Assembly: GCA_020725865.1 (NCBI GenBank) | Contig: DYEC01000001.1 | Location: forward strand, 1 to 64,000 | From: Anaerolinea sp. | Lineage (GTDB): Bacteria; Chloroflexota; Anaerolineae; Anaerolineales; Anaerolineaceae | Direction: 5' to 3' | Length of the DNA: 64,000 bases | Shown here: piece by piece, positions 1-17,167 of the stretch | How the letters are laid out: each line of letters begins with the position of its first letter | Position numbering within the stretch: position 1 is the first letter of the stretch | Position numbers and translations under genes: made by a program | The notes under the pieces: model-generated | What the model was told of the DNA's origin: nothing | Seen by the model: only the letters and a program-made list of their open reading frames with translations | Databases searched by the model: none

Positions 1-459
1 AGGGATGCCGGCGTCAATGGCTTTCATGATGGGTTCTTTGAAGAGGACGTTATCGGTGACGGTGAGAGCGATACCGTCCGGTTTAGCGGCGACAGCCTGG
101 TCAATCAATGAGGCAGTCTTTTCCAGGTCAAACTTGTCCGGACCCAGAACCTGCACATCAACGCCCATTTGAGCGGCGGCGTCCTTGATACCCTGCTCAA
201 CAGTGCACCAGAAAGAATCCCAGGCACATAGGGCGTGCTGCACCATGATGAATTTAAGTGGTTTTTCGCCAGCGGGTGCCTCAGGTGCTTTGGTGGGTTC
301 GGCGGGCGCTTCGGGTGCCTTGGTGGGTTCGGCGGGTTTTTCTGGGGCTTTGGTTGGCTCAGCGGGTTTCTCTGGCGCAGGCGTTGCTGCCGGTTGGCAG
401 GCTGTCAAGACCAAACTTAACAGGACGACCAGTGTCAATAGAACATGAAACTTTCTCAT
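1..459 (-). CDS. Sugar-type ABC transporter substrate-binding lipoprotein, N-terminal part (cut by window edge)
   Basis: The frame runs from an ATG at 459 out through position 1 with no stop, giving about 153 residues. A consensus Shine-Dalgarno (AGGAGGAAG) sits just upstream of the ATG. It has a lipoprotein signal peptide (MRKFHVLL..., L-T-A-C lipobox with Cys at residue 21), then a Pro/Glu/Thr/Lys/Ala linker of repeated EPTKAPE units, then the start of a type-1 periplasmic-binding fold (KPLKFIMVQHALCAW). It copies the N-terminus of the neighbouring gene (612-2558) almost residue for residue. By family knowledge it would be tethered to the outer face of the membrane and bring a sugar-like ligand to an RbsC-type permease. 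Whether it has one or two binding domains is not visible. Confidence 0.9.
   Translation of the reverse strand, partial: MRKFHVLLTLVVLLSLVLTACQPAATPAPEKPAEPTKAPEKPAEPTKAPEAPAEPTKAPEAPAGEKPLKFIMVQHALCAWDSFWCTVEQGIKDAAAQMGVDVQVLGPDKFDLEKTASLIDQAVAAKPDGIALTVTDNVLFKEPIMKAIDAGIP
1..459. repeat. Tandem duplication, copy 1 (copy 2 at 2100-2558)
   Basis: Positions 1-459 align without gaps to 2100-2558 (constant offset 2099). Differences are scattered substitutions, mostly at third codon positions and in the signal peptide. The copies cover signal peptide, linker and the first third of the binding domain. Confidence 0.9.
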
Positions 460-611: not shown

Positions 612-2558
612 TTAGCGGTATGTGCCTGCCAGTTCCTCGACGATATCCACATTGGATTTGTCAATGAAGCCTGGTCCAGTGGCTGAAATGCCAAGGGCGG
701 GGCTGATATTCTGGCGCAGATAAAGCACCAGGGACATGACTGTGCCATAACCGATTAGATATGGTTGAGCGTCCATCACAAACAGGGTGATCCCTTCGCG
801 AATATATTTAATATTCGCTGGGCTGATATCAAAGGTGACATGCTTAAGGTCGCCGGCTTTGATGCCCTGTGCTTCTACAAAGGCATAGAATGGATCAGAT
901 CCAGCCGGACCAACCGTCATAAAGGCGTCAACATCTGGATGGGCAGTATAGTAGTCACTGATGGTTGTTTGAACTTGCGCAGCATCTTCGCCTTTGACAC
1001 CCAATACCTCTCCTGGTATGCCCTTTTCTTTCAGGGCATCCAGGAAGCCACGGCAACGGGCATCTAGTCCGGTATGGCCTACCTGATGGTTGACGCAGAC
1101 AGCTTTTTTGACGCCAGCCTCTGCCAGCTTCAAGCCACCATAATAACCCTGCACGTAGTCCTCAGCACCCCAAAAGGTTAAATATGGAATGCCATCTTTT
1201 TCGGGTCCCTGACCAGTATCATAGGCAACCACCGGGATTCCAGATTCGATGGCTTTTGTGACCGGTTCTTTGAAGAGCACTGGATCTGTAATGACAACAC
1301 CCATGCCATCCGGTTTGGTAGCGGCCGCCTGATCAATCAGAGCCGCGGTCTTTTCGACGTCAAATTTGTCCGGACCGTAGATTGTGACCTCGACGCCCAT
1401 ATGTTTGGCAGCGTCTTGCATACCTCTTTCAACGACGCACCAGTACGGATCATAGGCACACATCGCATGCTGTACCATTGCCAACTTGAGCGGTTTGTCT
1501 GCTGGTACGGGTTGCTTGCCTAACATTTTGGCATCCACGAAGCCTGGACCGGTGGCAGTGACGGGCAATGCCGGGCGAATACCAAATTTGTTCGCCAGCA
1601 TCAGATACATGACCGCACCGTATCCCTGGAGGTATGGCTGCTGGTCAACTGCGAAGAGGGTTGTGCCGTCTTTGATCTTAGCTTCGACTTCGGGGGTGAC
1701 GTCGAAGGTACCATGCACTACACCCTTGACACCTTCGGCATCGAGGAAGGCATAGAAGGGGTTGGCTCCGCTAGGCCCGAGGGTGAGGAAGGCGTTGACA
1801 TCCGGGTTGGCGGCGTAGAAGTCGCTGATGGTGGTCTGGCTCTGTGCGGCGTCTTCGCCCTTAACGCCAAGGACTTCGGCTTTTAGATTCTGAGCTTTGA
1901 AAGCGTCAACGAAACCCTGGCAACGCTTATCAAGACCGGCGTGACCGACTTGATGGTTGATGCAGACGCCGCGCTTGGCGCCAGCCGCAATCAGCCGGAC
2001 ACCGCCTTGGTAGCCACCCTGATACTCATCCTGACCAAGGTAGGTAAGGTAGGGGATGCCGTCTTCCAGAGGACCCTTGCCGGCGTTATATGCCAGAACA
2101 GGGATGCCGGCGTCAATGGCTTTCATGATGGGTTCTTTGAAGAGGACAGGATCAGTGACAGTGAGGGCGATGCCGTCCGGTTTGGCGGCGACAGCCTGGT
2201 CAATCAATGAAGCGGTCTTTTCCAGGTCAAACTTGTCCGGTCCCAAAACCTGCACATCAACGCCCATTTGAGCGGCGGCGTCCTTGATACCCTGCTCAAC
2301 AGTGCACCAGAAGGAATCCCAGGCGCACAGGGCGTGCTGTACCATGATGAATTTGAGCGGTTTTTCACCTGCGGGTGCTTCAGGTGCCTTGGTGGGCTCG
2401 GCAGGTGCTTCGGGCGCTTTGGTGGGTTCGGCGGGTTTTTCCGGGGCTTTGGTTGGCTCAGCGGGTTTCTCTGGCGCAGGCGTTGCTGCTGGCTGACAAG
2501 CAGTCAACAGGATGCTTGCCAGTACGACAATGCTTAACAGGACACGCAATTTTTTCAT
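612..2558 (-). CDS. ABC transporter substrate-binding lipoprotein with two fused type-1 periplasmic-binding domains
   Basis: Protein of 648 residues starting at the ATG at 2558; a GGAGG lies immediately upstream, between this ATG and an in-frame ATG 15 bases earlier, which rules the earlier one out. Signal peptide with lipobox L-T-A-C (Cys 21), a Pro-rich EPTKAPE linker to about residue 65, then domain A (about 66-345) and domain B (about 353-648). Both begin with the same block (KPLKFIMVQHALCAW against KPLKLAMVQHAMCAY) and share GPDKFD, NHQVGH, GVKGEDAAQ and ATGPGF motifs in the same order. RbsB-like proteins normally have one such domain and about 300-350 residues. It lies directly downstream of an RbsC-like permease, so sugar or polyol uptake is likely; the ligand is unknown. 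No ATPase gene is visible nearby. Confidence 0.92.
   Translation of the reverse strand: MKKLRVLLSIVVLASILLTACQPAATPAPEKPAEPTKAPEKPAEPTKAPEAPAEPTKAPEAPAGEKPLKFIMVQHALCAWDSFWCTVEQGIKDAAAQMGVDVQVLGPDKFDLEKTASLIDQAVAAKPDGIALTVTDPVLFKEPIMKAIDAGIPVLAYNAGKGPLEDGIPYLTYLGQDEYQGGYQGGVRLIAAGAKRGVCINHQVGHAGLDKRCQGFVDAFKAQNLKAEVLGVKGEDAAQSQTTISDFYAANPDVNAFLTLGPSGANPFYAFLDAEGVKGVVHGTFDVTPEVEAKIKDGTTLFAVDQQPYLQGYGAVMYLMLANKFGIRPALPVTATGPGFVDAKMLGKQPVPADKPLKLAMVQHAMCAYDPYWCVVERGMQDAAKHMGVEVTIYGPDKFDVEKTAALIDQAAATKPDGMGVVITDPVLFKEPVTKAIESGIPVVAYDTGQGPEKDGIPYLTFWGAEDYVQGYYGGLKLAEAGVKKAVCVNHQVGHTGLDARCRGFLDALKEKGIPGEVLGVKGEDAAQVQTTISDYYTAHPDVDAFMTVGPAGSDPFYAFVEAQGIKAGDLKHVTFDISPANIKYIREGITLFVMDAQPYLIGYGTVMSLVLYLRQNISPALGISATGPGFIDKSNVDIVEELAGTYR
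2100..2558. repeat. Tandem duplication, copy 2 (copy 1 at 1-459)
   Basis: Second copy of the duplicated signal peptide, linker and domain start. Within both copies the linker (about 267-370 and 2366-2470) is built from short coding repeats for EPTKAPE/EKPA. Confidence 0.9.
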
Positions 2559-2628
2559 TTTTCCTCCGTTCATTTCGCCTTTTTCTTGAAAAGATATGTG
2601 GTGCAGTTATTGCAGTATTTGATCCGTA

Positions 2629-2683: not shown

Positions 2684-3682
2684 CTAGTCGGCTTTGCCTA
2701 AATAGGTGTTGCTGATGACTGCCAGGATGATGATCAGACCGGCAGTTGCCTGGAAGACCTGGATTGGAATCTGCATCAGCACAAGACCCTGGTCGAGCAT
2801 CTGAAGTAAAAACGTACCCAGCACAGCACCAATGATGGTGCCGTAGCCGCCCGTCAGCCGTACACCGCCAATAACACTAGCGGCAACTACAATCAGCTCC
2901 ATGCCCTCCCCGCGCAACGGGTCAACGCTCATGCGATGTGCAAATTGAAGGACGCTGGCGATGCCGACTAGCATTCCAGTGAGTGTGAAATTCATGATTT
3001 TGACTCGGGCAACGTGCACACCCTGTGCAAGAGCAGCTTCTGGTGCTCCACCTGCAGCGAAGATCCAATTACCATAGCGGGTACGCATCAAAACAAAGGT
3101 AAAAATCGCCGCCAGCAAGAGAAACCAAATCATTGAGGTGCGGAAAGCCTGTACACCAAAGAGGTTGTTAAGCAGGGTGAAATCACCGTTCATGATCTTG
3201 AAGACTGGAATAGGCTCGCCTTTGTAGGTTGCAAAATCGCCTCCGCCAATGGCACGCACGATTCCGCGATAAGCCAACATGGTGCCTAGAGTGGCAATGA
3301 AAGAGGGAATTCTGGTCTTGATAACAATCAAGCCATTCAAACATCCTAACAGGGTGCTGGAAACCAGTGCCAGAAGTATGGAGAGCCAGACTGGCCAACC
3401 CGCTATCAATGATAATGCTAAGACATAGCTGGCAACCGCAAAATTAGAGCCAACTGAAAGATCGAATTCACCAGAAATCATCAGCATCGCAACACCAATC
3501 GTGACGATTCCGGTGATACTCCCAAAGGTCAATATATTGCCAATCGAAAGTGGGGTCAGGAAATAGGGTGCCGCAAATGAGAAGAAGGTGAAAAGCAGGA
3601 GAAGGACGATCAGCGCAACAGCTTCGGGCATATAGGATAAGCGGTGTCGAATCTGTGGCAGTTTTTTTGTGACCAAATCCAT
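2684..3682 (-). CDS. RbsC-like sugar ABC transporter permease
   Basis: Protein of 332 residues beginning MDLVTKK. An upstream in-frame TTG is rejected because the Shine-Dalgarno GAGGTG overlaps it and places the ATG at 3682. It is almost entirely hydrophobic, with about 8-10 membrane segments, and carries the branched-chain/ribose permease signature (GEFDLSVGSN near residues 71-80, and the GGVRLTGGYGT region near the C-terminus). It is the membrane channel for the binding proteins encoded downstream. The matching ATPase is not in the window; it may lie beyond the left edge or be shared. First gene of the minus-strand operon; a promoter and LacI-type operator precede it. Confidence 0.9.
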   Translation of the reverse strand: MDLVTKKLPQIRHRLSYMPEAVALIVLLLLFTFFSFAAPYFLTPLSIGNILTFGSITGIVTIGVAMLMISGEFDLSVGSNFAVASYVLALSLIAGWPVWLSILLALVSSTLLGCLNGLIVIKTRIPSFIATLGTMLAYRGIVRAIGGGDFATYKGEPIPVFKIMNGDFTLLNNLFGVQAFRTSMIWFLLLAAIFTFVLMRTRYGNWIFAAGGAPEAALAQGVHVARVKIMNFTLTGMLVGIASVLQFAHRMSVDPLRGEGMELIVVAASVIGGVRLTGGYGTIIGAVLGTFLLQMLDQGLVLMQIPIQVFQATAGLIIILAVISNTYLGKAD

Positions 3683-3756
3683 TTGGCACCTCAAGGTTCA
3701 GAAAGATGAATTGAATTGGTGTCCTGCCCCTGTGACATCCCTAAACACACATTTTT

Positions 3757-3834: not shown

Positions 3835-5037
3835 CTAGCCAGTAATTGGCTTGACCAATCGGATGAACTCTTCTGCTTTGCGGTCTATTTCTTCTTCTGG
3901 GGTGAGAGGGTTAATGCCGAAATCAGCACCCAGGCCGGGATCAACAACACCAACGCTCAGGTTAATACTGCGTCGCAGGATGGAATCAGTATGTGGCAGC
4001 ATGTTTTTACGATAGCGTTGGGTTCCACTGGCATCGCGAAAATTGAGTAAATGTTCCATATTGTTATAAACATGCCAGCCACTATGGTAGACCACTTTGC
4101 TGTTCAAGGCTTTTGCAGCTTTTTCTGCTAATTCCTCATCTTCAAATTGAACGGTCAGCAGTGTGCAGCATTCGCCAGGATCATTAATGCGCCGGAAAGA
4201 TACCCCCTCCAGTCCGCCAGCCTGAATGCCGGCTTTTAAGCGAGCTTTTTTCATCCGCAAGGTTTCTAGAATTACGTCGAGTTTTCTGAGCTGTCCAAGT
4301 GCAAAAGCCCCGGTCAATTCATTCATGCGCATATTAATGCCGATAAGCGTGCGATTGCCGACTTCAACACCTTTCCGAAGTGGAAAATGTCCTTGATCGT
4401 GAAAAGCGAAAGCGCGGCGGTAAAGTGTTTCATCGTTGGTGACCAACAACCCGCCATCGCCGCTGTTGATCACTTTGTAGTTATTGAGTGAGAATGCCGC
4501 GCAGGCACCGAACGTCCCCAATCGCTGCCCGCGATAACTTCCTCCAAGCGCCTGACAGCAATCTTCAATCACAATCAGGTTGTATTTTTGTGCTAAAGCC
4601 ATGATTCTTTCCATGTCACATGGATTGCCCAGCATGTGAACGGGCATGATGACCTTAGTACGTGGGGTGATCTTACGCTCTGCATCTTGCGGGTCCATCG
4701 TAAGAGACTCATCCACTTCAACCAGTACTGGGATGCCGCCTACGGCTATTACTGAGGACATTGAAGCAATAAATGTATAGCCGGGCACAAGCACCTCATC
4801 GCCAGGCTGTAATCCAACCGCAACTAGGGATGCCATCAGCGCGCTGGTACCAGAATTGACCGCAACGCAATAATTTACTCCGATCTTTTGGGCAAATTCG
4901 CGCTCGAGCGTGTAAACTTTTTGTTTGAAGCGGAGGTCGTCATCCTTCCCATAGCGGGAAAGATAACCACTTTCTAAAACATCCATTACTTCTTTGCGTT
5001 CCTCGTCGCCAAAAAAGAAGAAACCTGGTCCTGGCAT
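3835..5037 (-). CDS. DegT/DnrJ/EryC1/StrS-family PLP-dependent sugar aminotransferase
   Basis: 400 residues, the usual size of the family. AGGAGGTGTAAC precedes the ATG. Family marks: the SGTSAL loop near residue 63, the EDCCQALG segment with the PLP-pyridine Asp, and a SLNNYKVINSGDGG block whose Lys would form the internal aldimine. These enzymes transfer an amino group to keto-sugars or keto-cyclitols, usually from Glu or Gln, in the cytoplasm. Its position beside a sugar ABC operon and a shared operator suggests it modifies or degrades the imported compound, perhaps an amino sugar or cyclitol; the substrate cannot be read. Confidence 0.9.
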   Translation of the reverse strand: MPGPGFFFFGDEERKEVMDVLESGYLSRYGKDDDLRFKQKVYTLEREFAQKIGVNYCVAVNSGTSALMASLVAVGLQPGDEVLVPGYTFIASMSSVIAVGGIPVLVEVDESLTMDPQDAERKITPRTKVIMPVHMLGNPCDMERIMALAQKYNLIVIEDCCQALGGSYRGQRLGTFGACAAFSLNNYKVINSGDGGLLVTNDETLYRRAFAFHDQGHFPLRKGVEVGNRTLIGINMRMNELTGAFALGQLRKLDVILETLRMKKARLKAGIQAGGLEGVSFRRINDPGECCTLLTVQFEDEELAEKAAKALNSKVVYHSGWHVYNNMEHLLNFRDASGTQRYRKNMLPHTDSILRRSINLSVGVVDPGLGADFGINPLTPEEEIDRKAEEFIRLVKPITG

Positions 5038-8869: not shown

Positions 8870-11800
8870 ATGAGCGAGACAAAAGCCGTTGCTATTGTTG
8901 GGATTGGCGCAATCATGCCAGATGCATTTGATGCGCCGACCTTCTGGCAAAATATCAAGCAGGCGCGTTATTCCATCACCGAAGTGCCGCCGGAACGCTG
9001 GCGGGTTGATTTATATTATGATCCCGATCCCTCCGTTCCAGATAAGACTTACAGCAAGATTGGAGCGTGGGTAAGGGGATTCAAATTTGAGCCGTTCAAA
9101 CTTGGCATTGCCATCCCACCCAAGGTGCTGGCAGTGATGGATGAAGCGCAGCAGTGGGCAATTGCCGCTTCTCACCAGGCGTTAAACGATTATGGCTACC
9201 CAAAGCGTCCCCTCAACCCGGAAAGAGTGGCGGTCATTTTTGGTAATGCCTTGGGGGGTGAATATCATTATCGCACAACCATGCGTATCTATCTTCCGGA
9301 GTATCTGGATATGCTGGCTTCTTTGCCCGATTTTCAGAATTTACCCCGCGAGGTACAGGCGGCTCTGATGAATGGGTTACAGGAGCGGATGCGATCGCGA
9401 ATTTCGGATATTACAGAAGACACGATGCCGGGTGAATTGAGCAATATTATTGCTGGTCGTGTCGCGAATGTCTTCAATTTTTCGGGACCAAACTATGTAA
9501 CAGATGCTGCCTGTGCAGCGTCCATTGCTGCATTGCAAAATGCGGTTGAGGGATTGATGGCGCATCAGTTTGATGCAGTGCTGACCGGCGGCATTGACCG
9601 GGGGATGGGACCGGAGGCGTTTGTTAAATTCAGTAAGATCGGCGCGCTCAGCCCGGATGGTTCGCGGCCTTTTGCGGAGGGCGCCAATGGTTTTGTAATG
9701 GGTGAAGGTGCGGCAGTTTTCCTGCTGAAGCGGTTGGCAGATGCCGAGAAGGACGGCGACAAAATCTATGCCGTCATTCGCGGAGTGGGTGGTAGCAGTG
9801 ACGGCAAAGGCAAAGGGATTACTGCTCCCAACCCGCTGGGCCAGCAGCGTGCGATTGAGCGTGCCTGGCGCAACGCTGGCCTCTCGCCAGCAACTGCTGG
9901 AATGATTGAAGCCCATGGAACATCCACACGGGTTGGCGATGTGACCGAGGTGAACAGTCTGAACGCAGTCTTCGCTCCGCTAGGGTTGCCGGTAGGAAAA
10001 GTGGCGCTGGGATCCGTCAAATCCAACATCGGGCATTTAAAAAGCGCTGCCGGAGCTGCCGGATTGTTAAAGGCGGTTTACGCTTTGTATGAACGAGTGA
10101 TTCCCCCTTCAGTAAACTTTGAGCGGCCGAATCCAAATATTGATTTTGCCCGTCTGCCGTTTTATGTGCCGACACAGGCGCGTCCGTGGGAGGTCCGTCA
10201 GGGCGAAGTGCGGCGTGCGGGTGTCAGCTCATTCGGTTTTGGTGGGACAAATTTTCATGTGGTGCTGGAAGAGTATCTGCCCGGCATGTTGACCGGCGAA
10301 AAGGTGTATGCAGTGCCCGAAATGCCGGCTAAGGCTGAAACAGTGGCTGAGCCGGCCATTCGGACGGTATCAGCCGGTGTCCAACCAGCGCTAAAACCTT
10401 ACAATGGCTTGCTGTTTCTCAGTGCAAACGACACGGCCGGATTGATGCAGGCTTTGCGCGTGGCACTAGAGCGGGCAGCCCGTGGTGAGCTGCCCCTCTC
10501 GGTTTGTCCAAGTGAAGAACAGCTCCGCAAACCGGAACGACTGGCAATTGATTTTGCCAATGCGGATGAATTGCTCAAGCGCGGCGAAAGGGCATTGAAA
10601 GCGTTGGAAAATCCCACCCCGGGCATCTGGACAGCTCTAACGGCTCAGGGCATTTTTTACGGTAGCGGAGAACCGGGGAAGGTGGTGTTCATGTTTCCCG
10701 GTCAGGGATCGCAGTATGTTAACATGCTGCGTGAATTGAGAGATGTAGAGCCGGTTGTGGCAGAGACCTTTGAAGAAGCCGATCGGATAATGGTACCGAT
10801 TTTAGGCCGCCCGTTGACCAGTTACATTTTTGTGGATGGTGATGAAACAGCTCTGGCTCAGGCTGAAAAGGAATTACGCAATACTGCTATCACCCAGCCG
10901 GCAATGCTGACCGCGAATGTGGCGGTGCTTCGGGTAATGGAGAAATACGGCTTTCACCCGCATCTGGTGATTGGTCACAGTCTGGGTGAGTATGCAGCGC
11001 TGGTAGCGGCTGAAGTGATGAGCTTTGCCGAAGCGCTTGAGGTGGTCAGCGCGCGCGGACGCGAGATGACGAAGGTATCGCTGGATGATAATGGGGCGAT
11101 GGTGGCAGTTTCTGCGCCGCTGGAAGAAGTGGAACAGGTATTGAAGACGGTGGAAGGTTATGCAGTAATTGCCAACATCAACAGCCCGATGCAATCAGTG
11201 ATTGGCGGTTCAACGGCAGCGATGGAATCAGCACTGGCGATCTTTCAGAAAGCTGGTTTTCAAGCCTCAAAAATTCCGGTTTCTCACGCTTTTCATACGA
11301 AAATTGTCGCTCCTGCCAGCGAACCGTTGCGCAGGGTAATTGAAAGTAAAAATATCCGCCCGCCCAGAATACCAGTTGTTGCTAATGTTACCGGTGAATT
11401 GTATCCAACGAACCGGGAAGAAATCATCGAAATGCTGGCACAACAGCTTGCTTCACCCGTACAGATGGTCAAGAGTATGCAGACGCTTTACCGCGAGGGC
11501 GCTCGCGTCTTTGTTGAGATCGGGCCAAAGCGGGTGATCAGTGCTTTAGCTGCCGACAATCTGAAACACTATCAAGATGTCATTATTCTAGGGACAAATC
11601 ACCCGCGTAAAGGCGCTCTGGTCAGCTTGAACGAAGCGCTGTGCGGCTTGTATGCGGCGGGTGTTGTACCGGTAGCTGAACCTTTAGCAGTTGCTATGCC
11701 ATCATTGCAAACTGAAACGCCTGCTGTTCACGGCGCTCCAGTGGTTATCCATCATAAAAATGGCCGTCTGCCGTTGACTGGCTCGGTGGTCATCAGCGGG

Positions 11801-14800
11801 GCTGGGTTGGGGCTTCCGGGGCGCGGAAAAGCTGTTTTTGATGAGCGGAATGTACTGCGTCTTCTAAACGGCGAAATGCTGATTGAACCGCTGACCGAAG
11901 AAAAACGCCGCGCAATGCTAGCAAAACGGGTGACCCGCTTGGTAAAAAGCGAGTCTGGGGCAGTAATGGAAACCATTGATGACCTTGAACAAACGGTTAA
12001 ACTAGGGGGACAGGGAGGGGTGTTTAATCTGGAAGAAGAATTCGGTATTCCCCAAGAACGTGTAGAGGCAACCGATATTTCGACTCAATTGGCAATCGCT
12101 GCCGGGATAGACGCCCTGCGTGATGCCGGTATTCCGCTGGTAATGGCATACCGGCAGACCAGTAAAGGTACACTGTTACCCGACCGCTGGCGGCTGCCGG
12201 AGGCGCTGGCAGATGAGACTGGCGTGATCTTCGGTTCGGCTTTCCCCGGCCTGGATCAGATGGCTGTCGAAGCAGAACGTTATTATCGGTATCAAGCGTT
12301 GACTGCTCAATTGAACGAATTACGCACCCTTAAGGTACTATTACCGGAAGGGCAGCAAGATGTGCGAGTGTTTTTGGAGAAACGCATTTCCGAACTGGAA
12401 GCACAACTTGCTGAAGAGGATTACCACTTTGACCGGCGCTTCATTTTCCGTATTCTTGCGATGGGGCACTCGCAATTTGCCGAACATATCGGAGCACGCG
12501 GACCCAATACACATGTTAACGCTGCTTGCGCTACGACAACCCATGCGATTGCTGTTGCGGAGGACTGGATAAGAACAGGGCGTTGCCGTCGGGTGGTCGT
12601 GATTGCTGGTGATGATGTGACGCGTGACAGCCTGGCTGGGTGGATTGGAACCGGCTTGATGGCAAGCGGCGCGGCAACCACAGAAGGAAACCCACGCATG
12701 GCAATTCTGCCGTTTGACCGCCGCCGTAACGGGATGATCATGGGCATGGGCGCAGCGGCGCTGGTGATAGAGTCAGAAGATGCAGTGCGCGAACGCGGGA
12801 TGAGAGGTATCAGTGAGATTCTGGCAACAGTGATTGCCAACAGTGCATTTCATGGTACCCGGTTGGACGTACAGCATGTTTGTGAGGTGATGGAGCGCCT
12901 GATCAGCGTGGCAGAAGAGCGTTATGGAATAAACCGCAAAGAGATCGCCCCTCAGACTGTTTTTGTCTCGCACGAGACCTACACCCCTGCGCGCGGCGGC
13001 AGCGCTTCTGCTGAAATCCGTGCTCTGCGTTACACCTTTGGGGAAGCTGCAGATCAGGTCATTATTGCCAATACCAAAGGTTATACCGGCCACACGATGG
13101 GTGTAGGAGTTGAGGATGTGCTGGCAGCAAAGGCGCTGGAATACGGCATTGTCCCGCCCATTGCCAATATTCATGAGGGCTTCGAGCCGGATCCAGAACT
13201 GGGCAACCTGAACCTTTCCAGAGGCGGTAAGTACAACGTAAAGTATGCGCTTCGTCTGGGCGCCGGATTTGGATCTCAAATTGCTATGACGTTGACACGC
13301 AAGATTGCCGGAGTTGGCGAACGTATCAACCCGGAGGTATATAACCGCTGGCTGTCGGATGTTGCGGGTTATGAACACGCAGAAACTGAGGTTGTACAAC
13401 ATACATTGCGTATCAAACACACGGGTGCGCCGGTAAAACCGCCAAAACGCTCAACGTGGGAGTATGGCACGGGTCCGACCATGTGGGCATTTGGAGAACC
13501 GAAAGTGGAAACCGAACCGGTGCAGCCTGTAATTGAGGTTCAGCAGCCCTTGGAAGCGAAACAGCCAATCCAAGCGGTTCCATCGGTGGTTGTTTCGGCA
13601 AGCGGTGAAGAAATTAAAAATAAAGTACTGTCGCTGGTGAGTGAGAAGACCGGTTATCCGGTGGAGATGCTGGACTTGGATTTGGACCTTGAGGCAGACT
13701 TGGGTATTGACACGGTCAAGCAAGCGGAACTGTTTGCGTCGGTGCGCGGGTTATATGACATTCCGCGCCGCGAAGACCTGCGTCTGGCGGATTACAACAC
13801 ACTGGCGAAGGTGATTGCGTTTGTGGAAGAGGCGGTCAAAGCACAAGGCGGCGCGCCGGCACAGGCGCCGGCGGAGGCGCCTGCCCAAGCCCCGGCAGTA
13901 GCCCCGCCGCCAGCAGCAAGTGTTGCTGTGTCTGCAGGATCGCCGGGGTTGTATGAAGAGATCAAGGAAAAAGTACTGTCGCTGGTGAGTGAGAAGACCG
14001 GTTATCCGGTGGAAATGTTGGACTTGGATTTGGACCTTGAGGCAGACTTGGGTATTGACACGGTGAAGCAAGCGGAACTGTTTGCGTCGGTGCGCGGGTT
14101 ATATGACATTCCGCGCCGCGAAGACCTGCGTCTGGCAGATTACAACACACTGGCGAAAGTGATCGCCTTTGTGGAAGAGGCAGTCAAAGCACAAGGCGGC
14201 GCGCCGGTGCAAGTGAAGGTGGAAGCCGTTGCTGAAGCTCCAGTTGTAACCCATCCGCAGAGAGCTGATATGTCGGCATCATCGCAAGTGTTGCGTGAAG
14301 AGATCAAGGAGAAAGTGCTGTCGTTGGTGAGCGAGAAGACCGGTTATCCGGTGGAGATGCTGGACTTGGATTTGGACCTTGAGGCAGACTTGGGTATTGA
14401 CACGGTGAAGCAAGCGGAGCTGTTTGCGTCGGTGCGCGGGTTGTATGACATCCCGCGCCGCGAAGACCTGCGTCTGGCGGACTATAACACGCTGGCGAAG
14501 GTGATTGCGTTTGTGGAGGAAGCCGTTCAGCCCGCGAAGCTTTCAGAGACGAGTAAAATTGAAAATGTAATGATTCAACCCGTAACAGAGTCAACTAATG
14601 AGGTCAATGCAGAGTTGGAAAGCCAAACCAGTCAGTCATCTGAAGTAAAAACCGGCGTTGTCCGCCGACGCGTTCCTGTTCCGGTATTGCGCCCGCGTCT
14701 TGACCTATGTGTACCAACTCAAATAAAACTTGAAGAAGGCAAACGTGTGGTCATCGTGCGGGATCAAGGCAAGGTCGCCGATTCTCTGATCCGATTGTTA

Positions 14801-17167
14801 CAAAAACGTAAAGTCAATGTGTTAGAGATAAGAGCTTATGAGGCGCTGGAACAGCATATCCAGAAGTGGCAGTCGGAAGGCAACATTGACGGCGTTTACT
14901 TCCTGCCAGCGTTAGATAATGAGCCCGACTTAAGCGTTTTGACCCTTGAGGGCTGGCAGGAAGCAATGGAAAAAAGGGTTTATGCACTGTATACGTTGAT
15001 GAAAAATATTGCTGGTAATCCGTTTCTGATTTGTGCCACACGGCTGGATGGACTGCATGGCTACGGTCCGAAGGGTGCCAGCGCGCCTCTCGGTGGGGCA
15101 GTCAGTGGATTTGCCAAGGCGCTTGCTCGCGAACGCCCAGGCACGCTGGTTAAAGTGATAGATTTTGAACCTGAAACTACTGCTAAAAATATTGCCAACT
15201 GTCTGTTGGAGGAAACTCTGAATGATCCAGCAGTGGTTGAGGTTGGCTATGAGGGCGATTTGCGTTTTACAATTGTCCTGCGTGATCAGCCTTTACCCGA
15301 TGCAGTGAATTTTGAGCTAAAACCCGGCAGTGTGTTTCTGGTGAGCGGCGGGACTGCAGGGATCATTGCTCCGGTGTTGCTTGACCTGGCACAGGTGGAA
15401 AGAAGTACGTTTTATCTGCTAGGAAGGTCACCGCTCCCGGAGTGTAATGACCCCGATTTACAACAGCTAAAGACAGACCGCGAGGCATTTCGCAAGGTGT
15501 TGCTACAGCGCATGGCACAACAGACGGGCGGCCGCCCTGCATTTATTGAAGTAGAACAAAAACTGGCGGCTTTGGAACGGGCAGCTGCTGCGCTGGACAC
15601 GATGGCAGAAATCCGCCGCCGTGGCGGTAAAGTGGAATACCTTGTCTGTGACGTGACCAATTTCCCCGCGGTACAGGCAGCAGTACAGCATGTGGCACAG
15701 GCAGAAGGCCGCGTGGATGTATTGATTCATGCAGCTGGTATCGAGCGCAGTCGCAAATTGGAAAGCAAGCCGCTGGAGGAAGTTCGCCAGACCCTTCAGG
15801 TTAAAGCAGATGGTTTTTTCCATCTCTATAAAGCCTTGCAGGAAGCTCAGTTGCAGCCGGGCGCTATTGTGATGTTTTCATCTGTTGCCGGGCGGTTTGG
15901 TAATGCCGGACAGGTGGACTATGCGGCGGCTAATGATTTGTTGTGCAAGCTGGCTTCTGCGCTTCGCCGTCAGAACCCGGCGGTCAAGACGCTCGTGCTG
16001 GATTGGGGTGCATGGGCAGAAGTTGGCATGGCGAGCCGCGGGCATACACCTGAGCTGATGAAAATGGCTGGAATCGAAATGATCCCACCGGCTGAAGGTG
16101 CGTCGCTTGTACGCAAAGAACTGCTCTCGGGCAACGGTGAGGTTGTGCTGGCAAGCTCATTGGGTATGCTGGAGACTTCTGCCTGTCCAAATGCAGGCTT
16201 GAACCTGATACGTGCCAATACAGCTTTGCGTGAAGGCAAGGTGGTGCACAAGATGCTGAGCCAGTTGACTGACCTGACACTACAGGATGGCATCCTGCTT
16301 GAAGCTGAGTTAGACCCCACATCGGAACCGTTCCTGCGTGATCATGCCCTAAATGGCATCCCGGTTTTGCCGGGAGTGGTGGGCATTGAAGGGTTCGTTG
16401 TGGCAGCCAGACATATCGCATCCGTACTGGCTGGACCAAAGCAAGGTTTTACTGTTTCGCATTTGGAAAATATCCGGTTTCTGACGCCATTCAAGTTCTA
16501 TCGAAATCAGTCGCGGCGAGTAATGTGGAAAGCTCAAATGGTGCGTGAGACAAGCGGTCTGGTAGCTTATGTCACGCTTGAGTCCGATCTGCCGCTGCAT
16601 TCGGGGCGGATGGAACACCTGCTCCATTTCTCTGGAATGGTGCACATGGAACCGGGTAAAGAAATGCCTTCAGCGACCGTTGAACCGCCGCTGTGGAAAG
16701 GCAAAGCGCTCGTCAAGGCTGAAGATATTTATCGGTTGTACTTCCATGGACCCAGTTTCCAGGTTCTAGAGGGTATTCAAGCCAATGGCGAGGGCATTTT
16801 GGGGCGGTTGCGTAACGGTCACGCAGTAGCCGAAAATGGCAGCCACTTGGTAAATACTGCCATGCTAGTAGAGTTGTGCTTTCAGACCGCAGGCATCTGG
16901 GAAGTGGCAAAGACCGGCGTTCTGGCGCTCCCGCATTCGATTCGCAGCCTGACCATTTATCAGGCTTGTGCTAAAGATACCCCGGTCTTTGCAGAAGTGA
17001 TACCTCATCAAGATGAGGCAGGAAACCTGAGCTTTGATGCGCGTGTAGTGGATGCGGATGGCTGTGTGTATCTGGAATTGAAGGATTATCGCACTTCACC
17101 TCTCCCCTATGCACCGGATCAAAACCTGATTGAGCCGTTCAAGCAATTGACCGGCGGGGTTAACTAA
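8870..17167 (+). CDS. PUFA-synthase-like multidomain megasynthase, KS-AT-KS-ACPx3-KR-DH
   Basis: 2765 residues. Domains: KS1 (1-470; Cys215, His349, His389), malonyl-type AT (604-905; GHSLGEY with Ser704, HAFH 806-809), KS2 (about 965-1440; Cys1220 in NAACATTT, His1368, His1408, with a predicted helical insertion before the Cys), three ACPs (attachment positions 1615, 1731, 1845), KR (Rossmann SGGTAGI near 2159, Ser2338, Tyr2351), and a C-terminal DH (His2492 in HALNGIPVLPG). KS1 is of PfaA type (ITEVPPERW). PfaA/B/C functions of marine PUFA synthases are condensed into one chain; the ER is supplied in trans by PfaD. Oddities: every ACP has LGIDT, Thr instead of Ser, and KS2 is not a degenerate chain-length factor. 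It likely makes a long-chain lipid or polyketide from malonyl-CoA; the product is unknown. Confidence 0.9.
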   Translation: MSETKAVAIVGIGAIMPDAFDAPTFWQNIKQARYSITEVPPERWRVDLYYDPDPSVPDKTYSKIGAWVRGFKFEPFKLGIAIPPKVLAVMDEAQQWAIAASHQALNDYGYPKRPLNPERVAVIFGNALGGEYHYRTTMRIYLPEYLDMLASLPDFQNLPREVQAALMNGLQERMRSRISDITEDTMPGELSNIIAGRVANVFNFSGPNYVTDAACAASIAALQNAVEGLMAHQFDAVLTGGIDRGMGPEAFVKFSKIGALSPDGSRPFAEGANGFVMGEGAAVFLLKRLADAEKDGDKIYAVIRGVGGSSDGKGKGITAPNPLGQQRAIERAWRNAGLSPATAGMIEAHGTSTRVGDVTEVNSLNAVFAPLGLPVGKVALGSVKSNIGHLKSAAGAAGLLKAVYALYERVIPPSVNFERPNPNIDFARLPFYVPTQARPWEVRQGEVRRAGVSSFGFGGTNFHVVLEEYLPGMLTGEKVYAVPEMPAKAETVAEPAIRTVSAGVQPALKPYNGLLFLSANDTAGLMQALRVALERAARGELPLSVCPSEEQLRKPERLAIDFANADELLKRGERALKALENPTPGIWTALTAQGIFYGSGEPGKVVFMFPGQGSQYVNMLRELRDVEPVVAETFEEADRIMVPILGRPLTSYIFVDGDETALAQAEKELRNTAITQPAMLTANVAVLRVMEKYGFHPHLVIGHSLGEYAALVAAEVMSFAEALEVVSARGREMTKVSLDDNGAMVAVSAPLEEVEQVLKTVEGYAVIANINSPMQSVIGGSTAAMESALAIFQKAGFQASKIPVSHAFHTKIVAPASEPLRRVIESKNIRPPRIPVVANVTGELYPTNREEIIEMLAQQLASPVQMVKSMQTLYREGARVFVEIGPKRVISALAADNLKHYQDVIILGTNHPRKGALVSLNEALCGLYAAGVVPVAEPLAVAMPSLQTETPAVHGAPVVIHHKNGRLPLTGSVVISGAGLGLPGRGKAVFDERNVLRLLNGEMLIEPLTEEKRRAMLAKRVTRLVKSESGAVMETIDDLEQTVKLGGQGGVFNLEEEFGIPQERVEATDISTQLAIAAGIDALRDAGIPLVMAYRQTSKGTLLPDRWRLPEALADETGVIFGSAFPGLDQMAVEAERYYRYQALTAQLNELRTLKVLLPEGQQDVRVFLEKRISELEAQLAEEDYHFDRRFIFRILAMGHSQFAEHIGARGPNTHVNAACATTTHAIAVAEDWIRTGRCRRVVVIAGDDVTRDSLAGWIGTGLMASGAATTEGNPRMAILPFDRRRNGMIMGMGAAALVIESEDAVRERGMRGISEILATVIANSAFHGTRLDVQHVCEVMERLISVAEERYGINRKEIAPQTVFVSHETYTPARGGSASAEIRALRYTFGEAADQVIIANTKGYTGHTMGVGVEDVLAAKALEYGIVPPIANIHEGFEPDPELGNLNLSRGGKYNVKYALRLGAGFGSQIAMTLTRKIAGVGERINPEVYNRWLSDVAGYEHAETEVVQHTLRIKHTGAPVKPPKRSTWEYGTGPTMWAFGEPKVETEPVQPVIEVQQPLEAKQPIQAVPSVVVSASGEEIKNKVLSLVSEKTGYPVEMLDLDLDLEADLGIDTVKQAELFASVRGLYDIPRREDLRLADYNTLAKVIAFVEEAVKAQGGAPAQAPAEAPAQAPAVAPPPAASVAVSAGSPGLYEEIKEKVLSLVSEKTGYPVEMLDLDLDLEADLGIDTVKQAELFASVRGLYDIPRREDLRLADYNTLAKVIAFVEEAVKAQGGAPVQVKVEAVAEAPVVTHPQRADMSASSQVLREEIKEKVLSLVSEKTGYPVEMLDLDLDLEADLGIDTVKQAELFASVRGLYDIPRREDLRLADYNTLAKVIAFVEEAVQPAKLSETSKIENVMIQPVTESTNEVNAELESQTSQSSEVKTGVVRRRVPVPVLRPRLDLCVPTQIKLEEGKRVVIVRDQGKVADSLIRLLQKRKVNVLEIRAYEALEQHIQKWQSEGNIDGVYFLPALDNEPDLSVLTLEGWQEAMEKRVYALYTLMKNIAGNPFLICATRLDGLHGYGPKGASAPLGGAVSGFAKALARERPGTLVKVIDFEPETTAKNIANCLLEETLNDPAVVEVGYEGDLRFTIVLRDQPLPDAVNFELKPGSVFLVSGGTAGIIAPVLLDLAQVERSTFYLLGRSPLPECNDPDLQQLKTDREAFRKVLLQRMAQQTGGRPAFIEVEQKLAALERAAAALDTMAEIRRRGGKVEYLVCDVTNFPAVQAAVQHVAQAEGRVDVLIHAAGIERSRKLESKPLEEVRQTLQVKADGFFHLYKALQEAQLQPGAIVMFSSVAGRFGNAGQVDYAAANDLLCKLASALRRQNPAVKTLVLDWGAWAEVGMASRGHTPELMKMAGIEMIPPAEGASLVRKELLSGNGEVVLASSLGMLETSACPNAGLNLIRANTALREGKVVHKMLSQLTDLTLQDGILLEAELDPTSEPFLRDHALNGIPVLPGVVGIEGFVVAARHIASVLAGPKQGFTVSHLENIRFLTPFKFYRNQSRRVMWKAQMVRETSGLVAYVTLESDLPLHSGRMEHLLHFSGMVHMEPGKEMPSATVEPPLWKGKALVKAEDIYRLYFHGPSFQVLEGIQANGEGILGRLRNGHAVAENGSHLVNTAMLVELCFQTAGIWEVAKTGVLALPHSIRSLTIYQACAKDTPVFAEVIPHQDEAGNLSFDARVVDADGCVYLELKDYRTSPLPYAPDQNLIEPFKQLTGGVN
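13622..13859 (+). repeat. ACP-coding repeat, unit 1
   Basis: First of three almost identical ACP-coding units. Unit 2 is offset by 348 bases, unit 3 by a further 342. The core motif LEADLGIDTVKQAE is the same in all. Confidence 0.9.
13970..14207 (+). repeat. ACP-coding repeat, unit 2
   Basis: Second unit. Over the ACP core it differs from unit 1 only at scattered synonymous positions. An Ala/Pro-rich linker (13846-13969) separates the two units. Confidence 0.9.
14312..14528 (+). repeat. ACP-coding repeat, unit 3
   Basis: Third unit, again near-identical to the others; the copy ends earlier, just after the VIAFVEEAV helix. Confidence 0.9.

Follow-up and report, generated by a model that had tools for sequence, protein, structure and literature searches.

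A conserved two-domain, probably inositol-binding lipoprotein in Anaerolinea, with a changed pocket in its second domain

The substrate-binding lipoprotein (SBP) encoded near the start of the Anaerolinea sp. contig analysed here is a real, conserved and functional-looking two-site receptor, and it lies in a myo-inositol catabolic operon. We favour, with a probability of roughly 0.6, a reading in which its first domain (D1) binds myo-inositol, its second domain (D2) a different but related ligand, and both serve one importer, the fusion being old and D2 having escaped the homogenisation seen in its relatives. The most interesting observation is that doubling is found across the whole class with homogenised halves, together with a changed D2 pocket in the clade to which this protein belongs. 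The stretch of DNA that was analysed, 64,000 nucleotides and from here on called the window, forms the beginning of a contig of 292,876 bp (C25), in a genome of 3.12 Mb and 26 contigs. The features that concern the receptor, with the basis of each assignment, are:

1..459, minus strand: 5' part of a tandem SBP paralogue, cut by the contig end (sequence comparison)
612..2558, minus strand: gene of the two-domain substrate-binding lipoprotein, 648 aa (ORF list, PF13407, D1-D2 alignment)
615..1499, minus strand: domain D2 (Peripla_BP_4), residues 354-648 (PF13407, pocket alignment, AlphaFold2 model)
1500..1523, minus strand: inter-domain linker, residues 346-353 (D1-D2 alignment, linker alignment across relatives)
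1524..2363, minus strand: domain D1 (Peripla_BP_4), residues 66-345 (PF13407, pocket alignment, AlphaFold2 model)
2364..2495, minus strand: Pro/Ala/Lys-rich stalk, residues 22-65 (sequence)
2496..2558, minus strand: signal peptide and lipobox (LTA-C21), residues 1-21 (sequence)
2684..3694, minus strand: permease 1 (PF02653), upstream of the two-domain SBP in the operon (PF02653 match)

The open reading frame 2573..612 on the minus strand gives 653 aa from an upstream in-frame ATG; translation more likely begins with the ATG at 2558, for a product of 648 aa without any internal stop or frameshift. A sequence-only reading of this DNA had described two homologous type-1 binding domains in one lipoprotein, and this description holds. 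PF13407 scores 264 bits against the whole protein with two stretches over threshold, and 142 and 131 bits against the separate domains (cut-off 35.1), which places both in the CUT2 (Peripla_BP_4) family, and the lipobox cysteine is C21. When residues 66-345 were aligned with the second domain the identity was 61% over 273 aa (E 2e-131), a similarity far beyond chance. D2 has no signal peptide or stalk of its own, as an in-frame fusion of tandem genes would predict, and the linker letters VPADKPLK are found at residues 351-358. The usual CUT2 SBP, though not by strict definition, has one domain per chain; here there are two. An AlphaFold2 model made with 19 orthologues shows two complete SBP folds (pLDDT 90.8, pTM 0.88), and in a structure search solved SBPs matched either half of it with Z 25-27; no PDB entry covering both domains was among the structure matches listed. 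The same signal peptide and a PAEPTKAPE-like stalk (window 2364-2558) also occur in other proteins of the genome (L004-L009), with about 55-74% identity over up to residues 1-94, which suggests that N-termini have been shuffled.

The paralogue, which starts downstream of the fused gene and is cut by the contig end, has 94% identity to residues 1-153 of the fused protein, and its 3' part was found at the end of contig C22 (C22:222340-222672; L011), D1-like over residues 247-343 and then with a D2-like tail. Orientation, the split gene and the gene order around a full-length orthologue (L022) join C25:1 to C22:222672. The gap is flanked by perfect identity to D1 and is therefore most likely a collapsed repeat. 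The simplest reading of the split paralogue is a single-domain protein with about 93 codons missing; it is possible that it is a second doubled gene. With one D1-like and one D2-like end, it looks as a single-domain product of unequal recombination is expected to look.

Beyond the paralogue, C22 carries permease 2, an ATPase of 256 aa with one NBD, a transaldolase-like gene, iolB, iolD, an iolE-like gene, a LacI-type regulator and three iolG. The iolB (317 bits, cut-off 205) and iolD (919 bits, cut-off 715), both downstream of the SBP, and the three iolG (484, 385 and 471 bits, cut-off 355) score over their cut-offs, and the iolE-like gene is below (187 bits, cut-off 290). The locus is a myo-inositol catabolic operon, and because of these neighbours the substrate class is inositol and not the generic sugar first proposed. 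Three inositol dehydrogenases would be consistent with the utilisation of two or more inositols. The operon has the BPD_transp_2 permease and RbsA-like ATPase genes of a CUT2 system, the ATPase and permease 2 lying on C22 and being tied to the SBP through the split paralogue and the synteny with L022. The two permeases are 44% identical to each other; a single permease had been suggested, and the genes show two different ones. Directly upstream of permease 1, at window 3835-5037, is a DegT/DnrJ aminotransferase. It was considered as a conserved partner that would hint at inosamines, and was rejected since no DegT homologue was found beside the cassette in L022 and other relatives.

The fusion is no local, recent event. 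Its architecture is old and conserved, and the class has many other doubled SBPs. L022 (G025), from another genus, is 75% identical over all 648 residues and lies inside a contig of 112 kb, and full-length relatives in general are 53-78% identical. Scanning of GTDB genomes yielded 26 loci, the majority of them with two domains, in MAGs of Anaerolineae, Caldilineales and Ardenticatenia and in one MAG labelled Armatimonadetes; nearly all sequences come from MAGs. About 20 loci, mostly from Chloroflexota, share the fusion, and in these the cassette PERM1 - SBP - PERM2 - ATPase (about 260 aa, single NBD) is constant, so that the architecture does recur in other Chloroflexota. Four loci (L039-L042) have the same cassette with a single-domain SBP. 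More distant homologues in the phylum are also single-domain, with one permease gene only in the stretches that were fetched, and plasmid homologues in Thermus and Rhizobium match over about 850 bp, which is one domain.

The history of the doubled gene appears to differ between the middle and the ends of the domains. In a whole-domain tree D1 and D2 group by lineage and not by position. On the tree of the 83 flank columns, however, the D1/D2 label needs 4 changes, as compared to a mean of 14 when shuffled, and on the 199 middle columns it needs 13. At residue 86/375 there is Thr in 20/20 D1 and Val in 20 of the 21 D2, and at column 322/613 D1 and D2 have no residue in common. In L024, L025 and L028 the halves share long tracts of 100% nucleotide identity and have diverged at the ends. 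The simplest account would be one old fusion, with the domain middles homogenised by intragenic recombination (apparent gene conversion) and the ends keeping their D1 or D2 identity. This identity is imperfectly kept; a single D1 clade together with a single D2 clade is absent from the whole-domain tree, and on the flanks, too, the placing of all D1 in one clade is rejected (p 0.03).

That rejection, and the pairing of D1 with D2 within lineages in the whole-domain trees, would also be expected if the fusions were young and recurrent, each lineage having doubled its own single-domain gene. The single-domain relatives in the same cassette (L039-L042) point in this direction, as do the double and single forms that are interspersed in another orthogroup. 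In the inositol family, however, different lineages have the same D1- and D2-diagnostic residues at the domain ends and the linker in the same place, and we consider recurrent fusion the less probable origin, although it keeps a real share of the probability. The question concerns origin only, and recurrent fusion is compatible with any function. Under the single old fusion that we prefer, the D2 of the window's clade, which has a long branch (0.43, support 100/100) and only 62% nucleotide identity to D1, appears to have escaped homogenisation.

To compare the binding sites we used the ligand positions of RBP, Asn13, Phe15, Phe16, Asp89, Arg90, Arg141, Asn190, Asp215 and Gln235 (PMC3676853), and the neighbouring positions 64 and 214, mapped by alignment and with the RBP pocket as a guide only. 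The D1 pocket is D81 F83 W84 T133 N158 A159 R212 G261 F285 D286 Q306 and the D2 pocket is D370 Y372 W373 V422 D447 T448 R501 G550 F576 D577 A597. The best Foldseek match, 4RU1 (Acel_1806 of Acidothermus cellulolyticus; E 2e-20, 31% identity), is a verified myo-inositol protein (PMC10747050). By alignment mapping only, D1 is the same as this CUT2-type protein at 11/11 pocket positions and D2 differs at 5/11, and 4RU1 has a single domain where the present protein has two. The pattern D F W T N A R G F D Q is, with isolated exceptions, common to the D1s, the D2s of other relatives, the single-domain forms and 4RU1; the D1 of L022 deviates at one position (A>N). In the D2 of the window, L021, L022 and L023 the changes F>Y, N>D, A>T and Q>A are found in 4/4, and T>V in three of the four. 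Outgroups carry the N/Q type of pocket, and thus D2 is the domain that has changed. Four contact positions have been altered together, and D2 is not the plain second copy of the family norm that it had been taken for. The D2 orthologues have dN of 0.10-0.17 and saturated synonymous sites, like D1, and D2 thus seems to have diverged under purifying selection.

Rhizopines are inosamines, and the sole close family of each domain is the MocB rhizopine-binding equivalog NF052284 (NCBIfam), in which neither can be placed, as they score 219 and 233 bits, far below the cut-off of 420. The fused protein reaches 442 bits and passes only by the sum of its two domain scores. This makes NF052284 on window 615-2558 an annotation pitfall for doubled proteins, in which two scores below the threshold add up. 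MocB itself works with an inositol permease (PMC10107442).

In the reading that we favour, the protein would be a lipid-anchored receptor whose two sites serve a CUT2-type ABC importer of inositols. D1 (66-345) would retain the ancestral myo-inositol pocket, and D2 (354-648) would have been re-specified in the window's clade, its likely ligand being another inositol stereoisomer, an inosamine or a hexose. The domains may deliver ligand by turns to a translocator made of the two different permeases, plausibly as a heterodimer of permease 1 and permease 2, and the single-NBD ATPase. In most relatives intragenic recombination would keep the halves alike, and here D2 would have escaped and diverged under purifying selection. 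The sequence-only reading had offered binding of two ligands or higher capture as advantages of two domains; the changed D2 pocket favours two ligands in the window's clade, and the identical pockets favour more capture in most relatives. Judged from the mapped positions, both sites look the same outside the window's clade, and two ligands therefore cannot be the general reason for doubling; for the relatives with identical pockets the gain must, on the same mapping, be another one, for example more sites per anchor.

It is conceivable, though clearly less probable than two ligands, that the two sites are equivalent in the window's clade as well, with the same inositol in both and the D2 substitutions only tuning affinity. 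The benefit would then lie in the larger number of sites on each anchored chain, and in a greater probability that the permease encounters a domain with bound ligand. The relatives outside the window's clade speak for this, with homogenised halves and with pockets that agree at almost all mapped positions, and so do the other doubled SBPs of the class, most of which have halves that are 95-100% identical. Against it stands a joint change at four contact positions that is fixed in the four genomes of the clade and that includes the position of RBP Gln235, which is the only hinge residue that touches the sugar (PMC3676853). A D2 that no longer binds ligand and acts instead as a spacer, or as a domain for docking or regulation, is improbable. 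Ala597 in place of the Gln of the other domains and the long branch of D2 could be understood in this way, but D2 retains R501, F576, D577, W373 and D370, three of its substitutions (Y, D, T) occur at the same positions in the sugar-binding relatives 2H3H and 3ROT, and D2 shows purifying selection. An assembly artefact, in which two tandem paralogues were chimerised at the contig end, can be dismissed: it is true that base 1 of the contig is also the start of the window and that the nearly identical paralogue breaks there, but about 20 independent loci in MAGs have the same fusion, some of them in the interior of large contigs as in L022, and the D2 groups with the D2 domains of three further genomes in an orthologous clade.

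Importers of the GlnPQ and OpuA type have tandem or paired substrate-binding domains, and the tandem kind is known chiefly where it is fused to the permease, as in GlnPQ. The tandem SBP domains of GlnPQ are in one chain, bind different ligands and compete for docking to one translocator while acting independently (PMC8025302). The arrangement described here likewise has two SBP domains per chain that would feed one translocator, but they form a separate lipoprotein of the CUT2 (Peripla_BP_4) family, with the permeases as separate ORFs, and are not fused to the permease. The CUT2 importers of the RbsABC / FrcBCA type likewise have a Peripla_BP_4 SBP, BPD_transp_2 permeases and an RbsA-like ATPase half; here, by comparison, the SBP is doubled, the permeases are two and different, and the ATPase has one NBD (about 260 aa). 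In the literature searched, with partial coverage, we found nothing relevant on doubled SBPs in Chloroflexota.

A PF13407 survey of 60 relatives showed 22 ORFs, in 12 genomes, with two full domains among roughly 240, and in 150 genomes of the class (Anaerolineae and allies) at least 17 of 120 PF13407 ORFs have two or three domains. Among the 85 matches listed from outside the class but inside the phylum there were no doubled SBPs, and the long single-match ORFs that were checked there had one domain and no second. The difference between the class and the rest of the phylum has a Fisher p of 1e-4, among the matches listed and uncorrected for relatedness. The doubled SBPs that were fetched come from several subfamilies and adjoin genes of double-NBD ATPases; across the full mature domain the identity of the two halves is usually 95-100%. 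Orthologous doubled genes of different genera have near-identical halves within the gene and only 60-88% identity between the genomes. One orthogroup has double and single forms interspersed, and short-read assemblies may collapse identical repeats; it is probable that identical tandem domains have been collapsed in this way and that doubling is under-counted. The doubled loci contained one other long direct repeat in 187 kb, and this near absence of other long repeats argues against sloppy assembly.

These observations could be brought together if double and triple CUT2 SBPs evolve in concert across the class by intragenic recombination, and lineages that escape gain a second specificity, with one anchored receptor and one importer with two different permease halves; we regard this wider model as evenly balanced. 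A class with free-standing doubled receptors for sugars and cyclitols would provide natural experiments on the value of two sites, where identical halves test the number of sites alone and the window's clade tests a second specificity once homogenisation stops.

The other doubled SBPs show further variation. In L060, L063, L067, L068, L097, L100, L111 and others, which belong to other subfamilies and represent a form that is common in the class, the halves are 97-100% identical in nucleotides. Heterotypic SBP fusions (L098, L103, L105, L107, L110 and L112) have about 32-36% identity between the domains, 30% in L098, and a conserved KGIPHEWTTEGWEPP-like linker region, and several have two ATPase genes nearby. 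Chains with three SBP domains were seen in L028/L109 (946 aa) and L096 (906 aa), and in L028 a domain of another subfamily is fused ahead of the inositol pair. Doubled SBPs are also located beside inositol genes in L016 (G052; iolD-like and transaldolase-like) and L101 (G376; iolE-like), and since these belong to a different subfamily, doubling has arisen more than once in inositol transport. Elsewhere in the window, near-identical tandem acyl-carrier repeats (88-92% in nucleotides) were observed at 13605-14526, in a polyketide/PUFA-synthase-like ORF of 2765 aa at 8870-17167.
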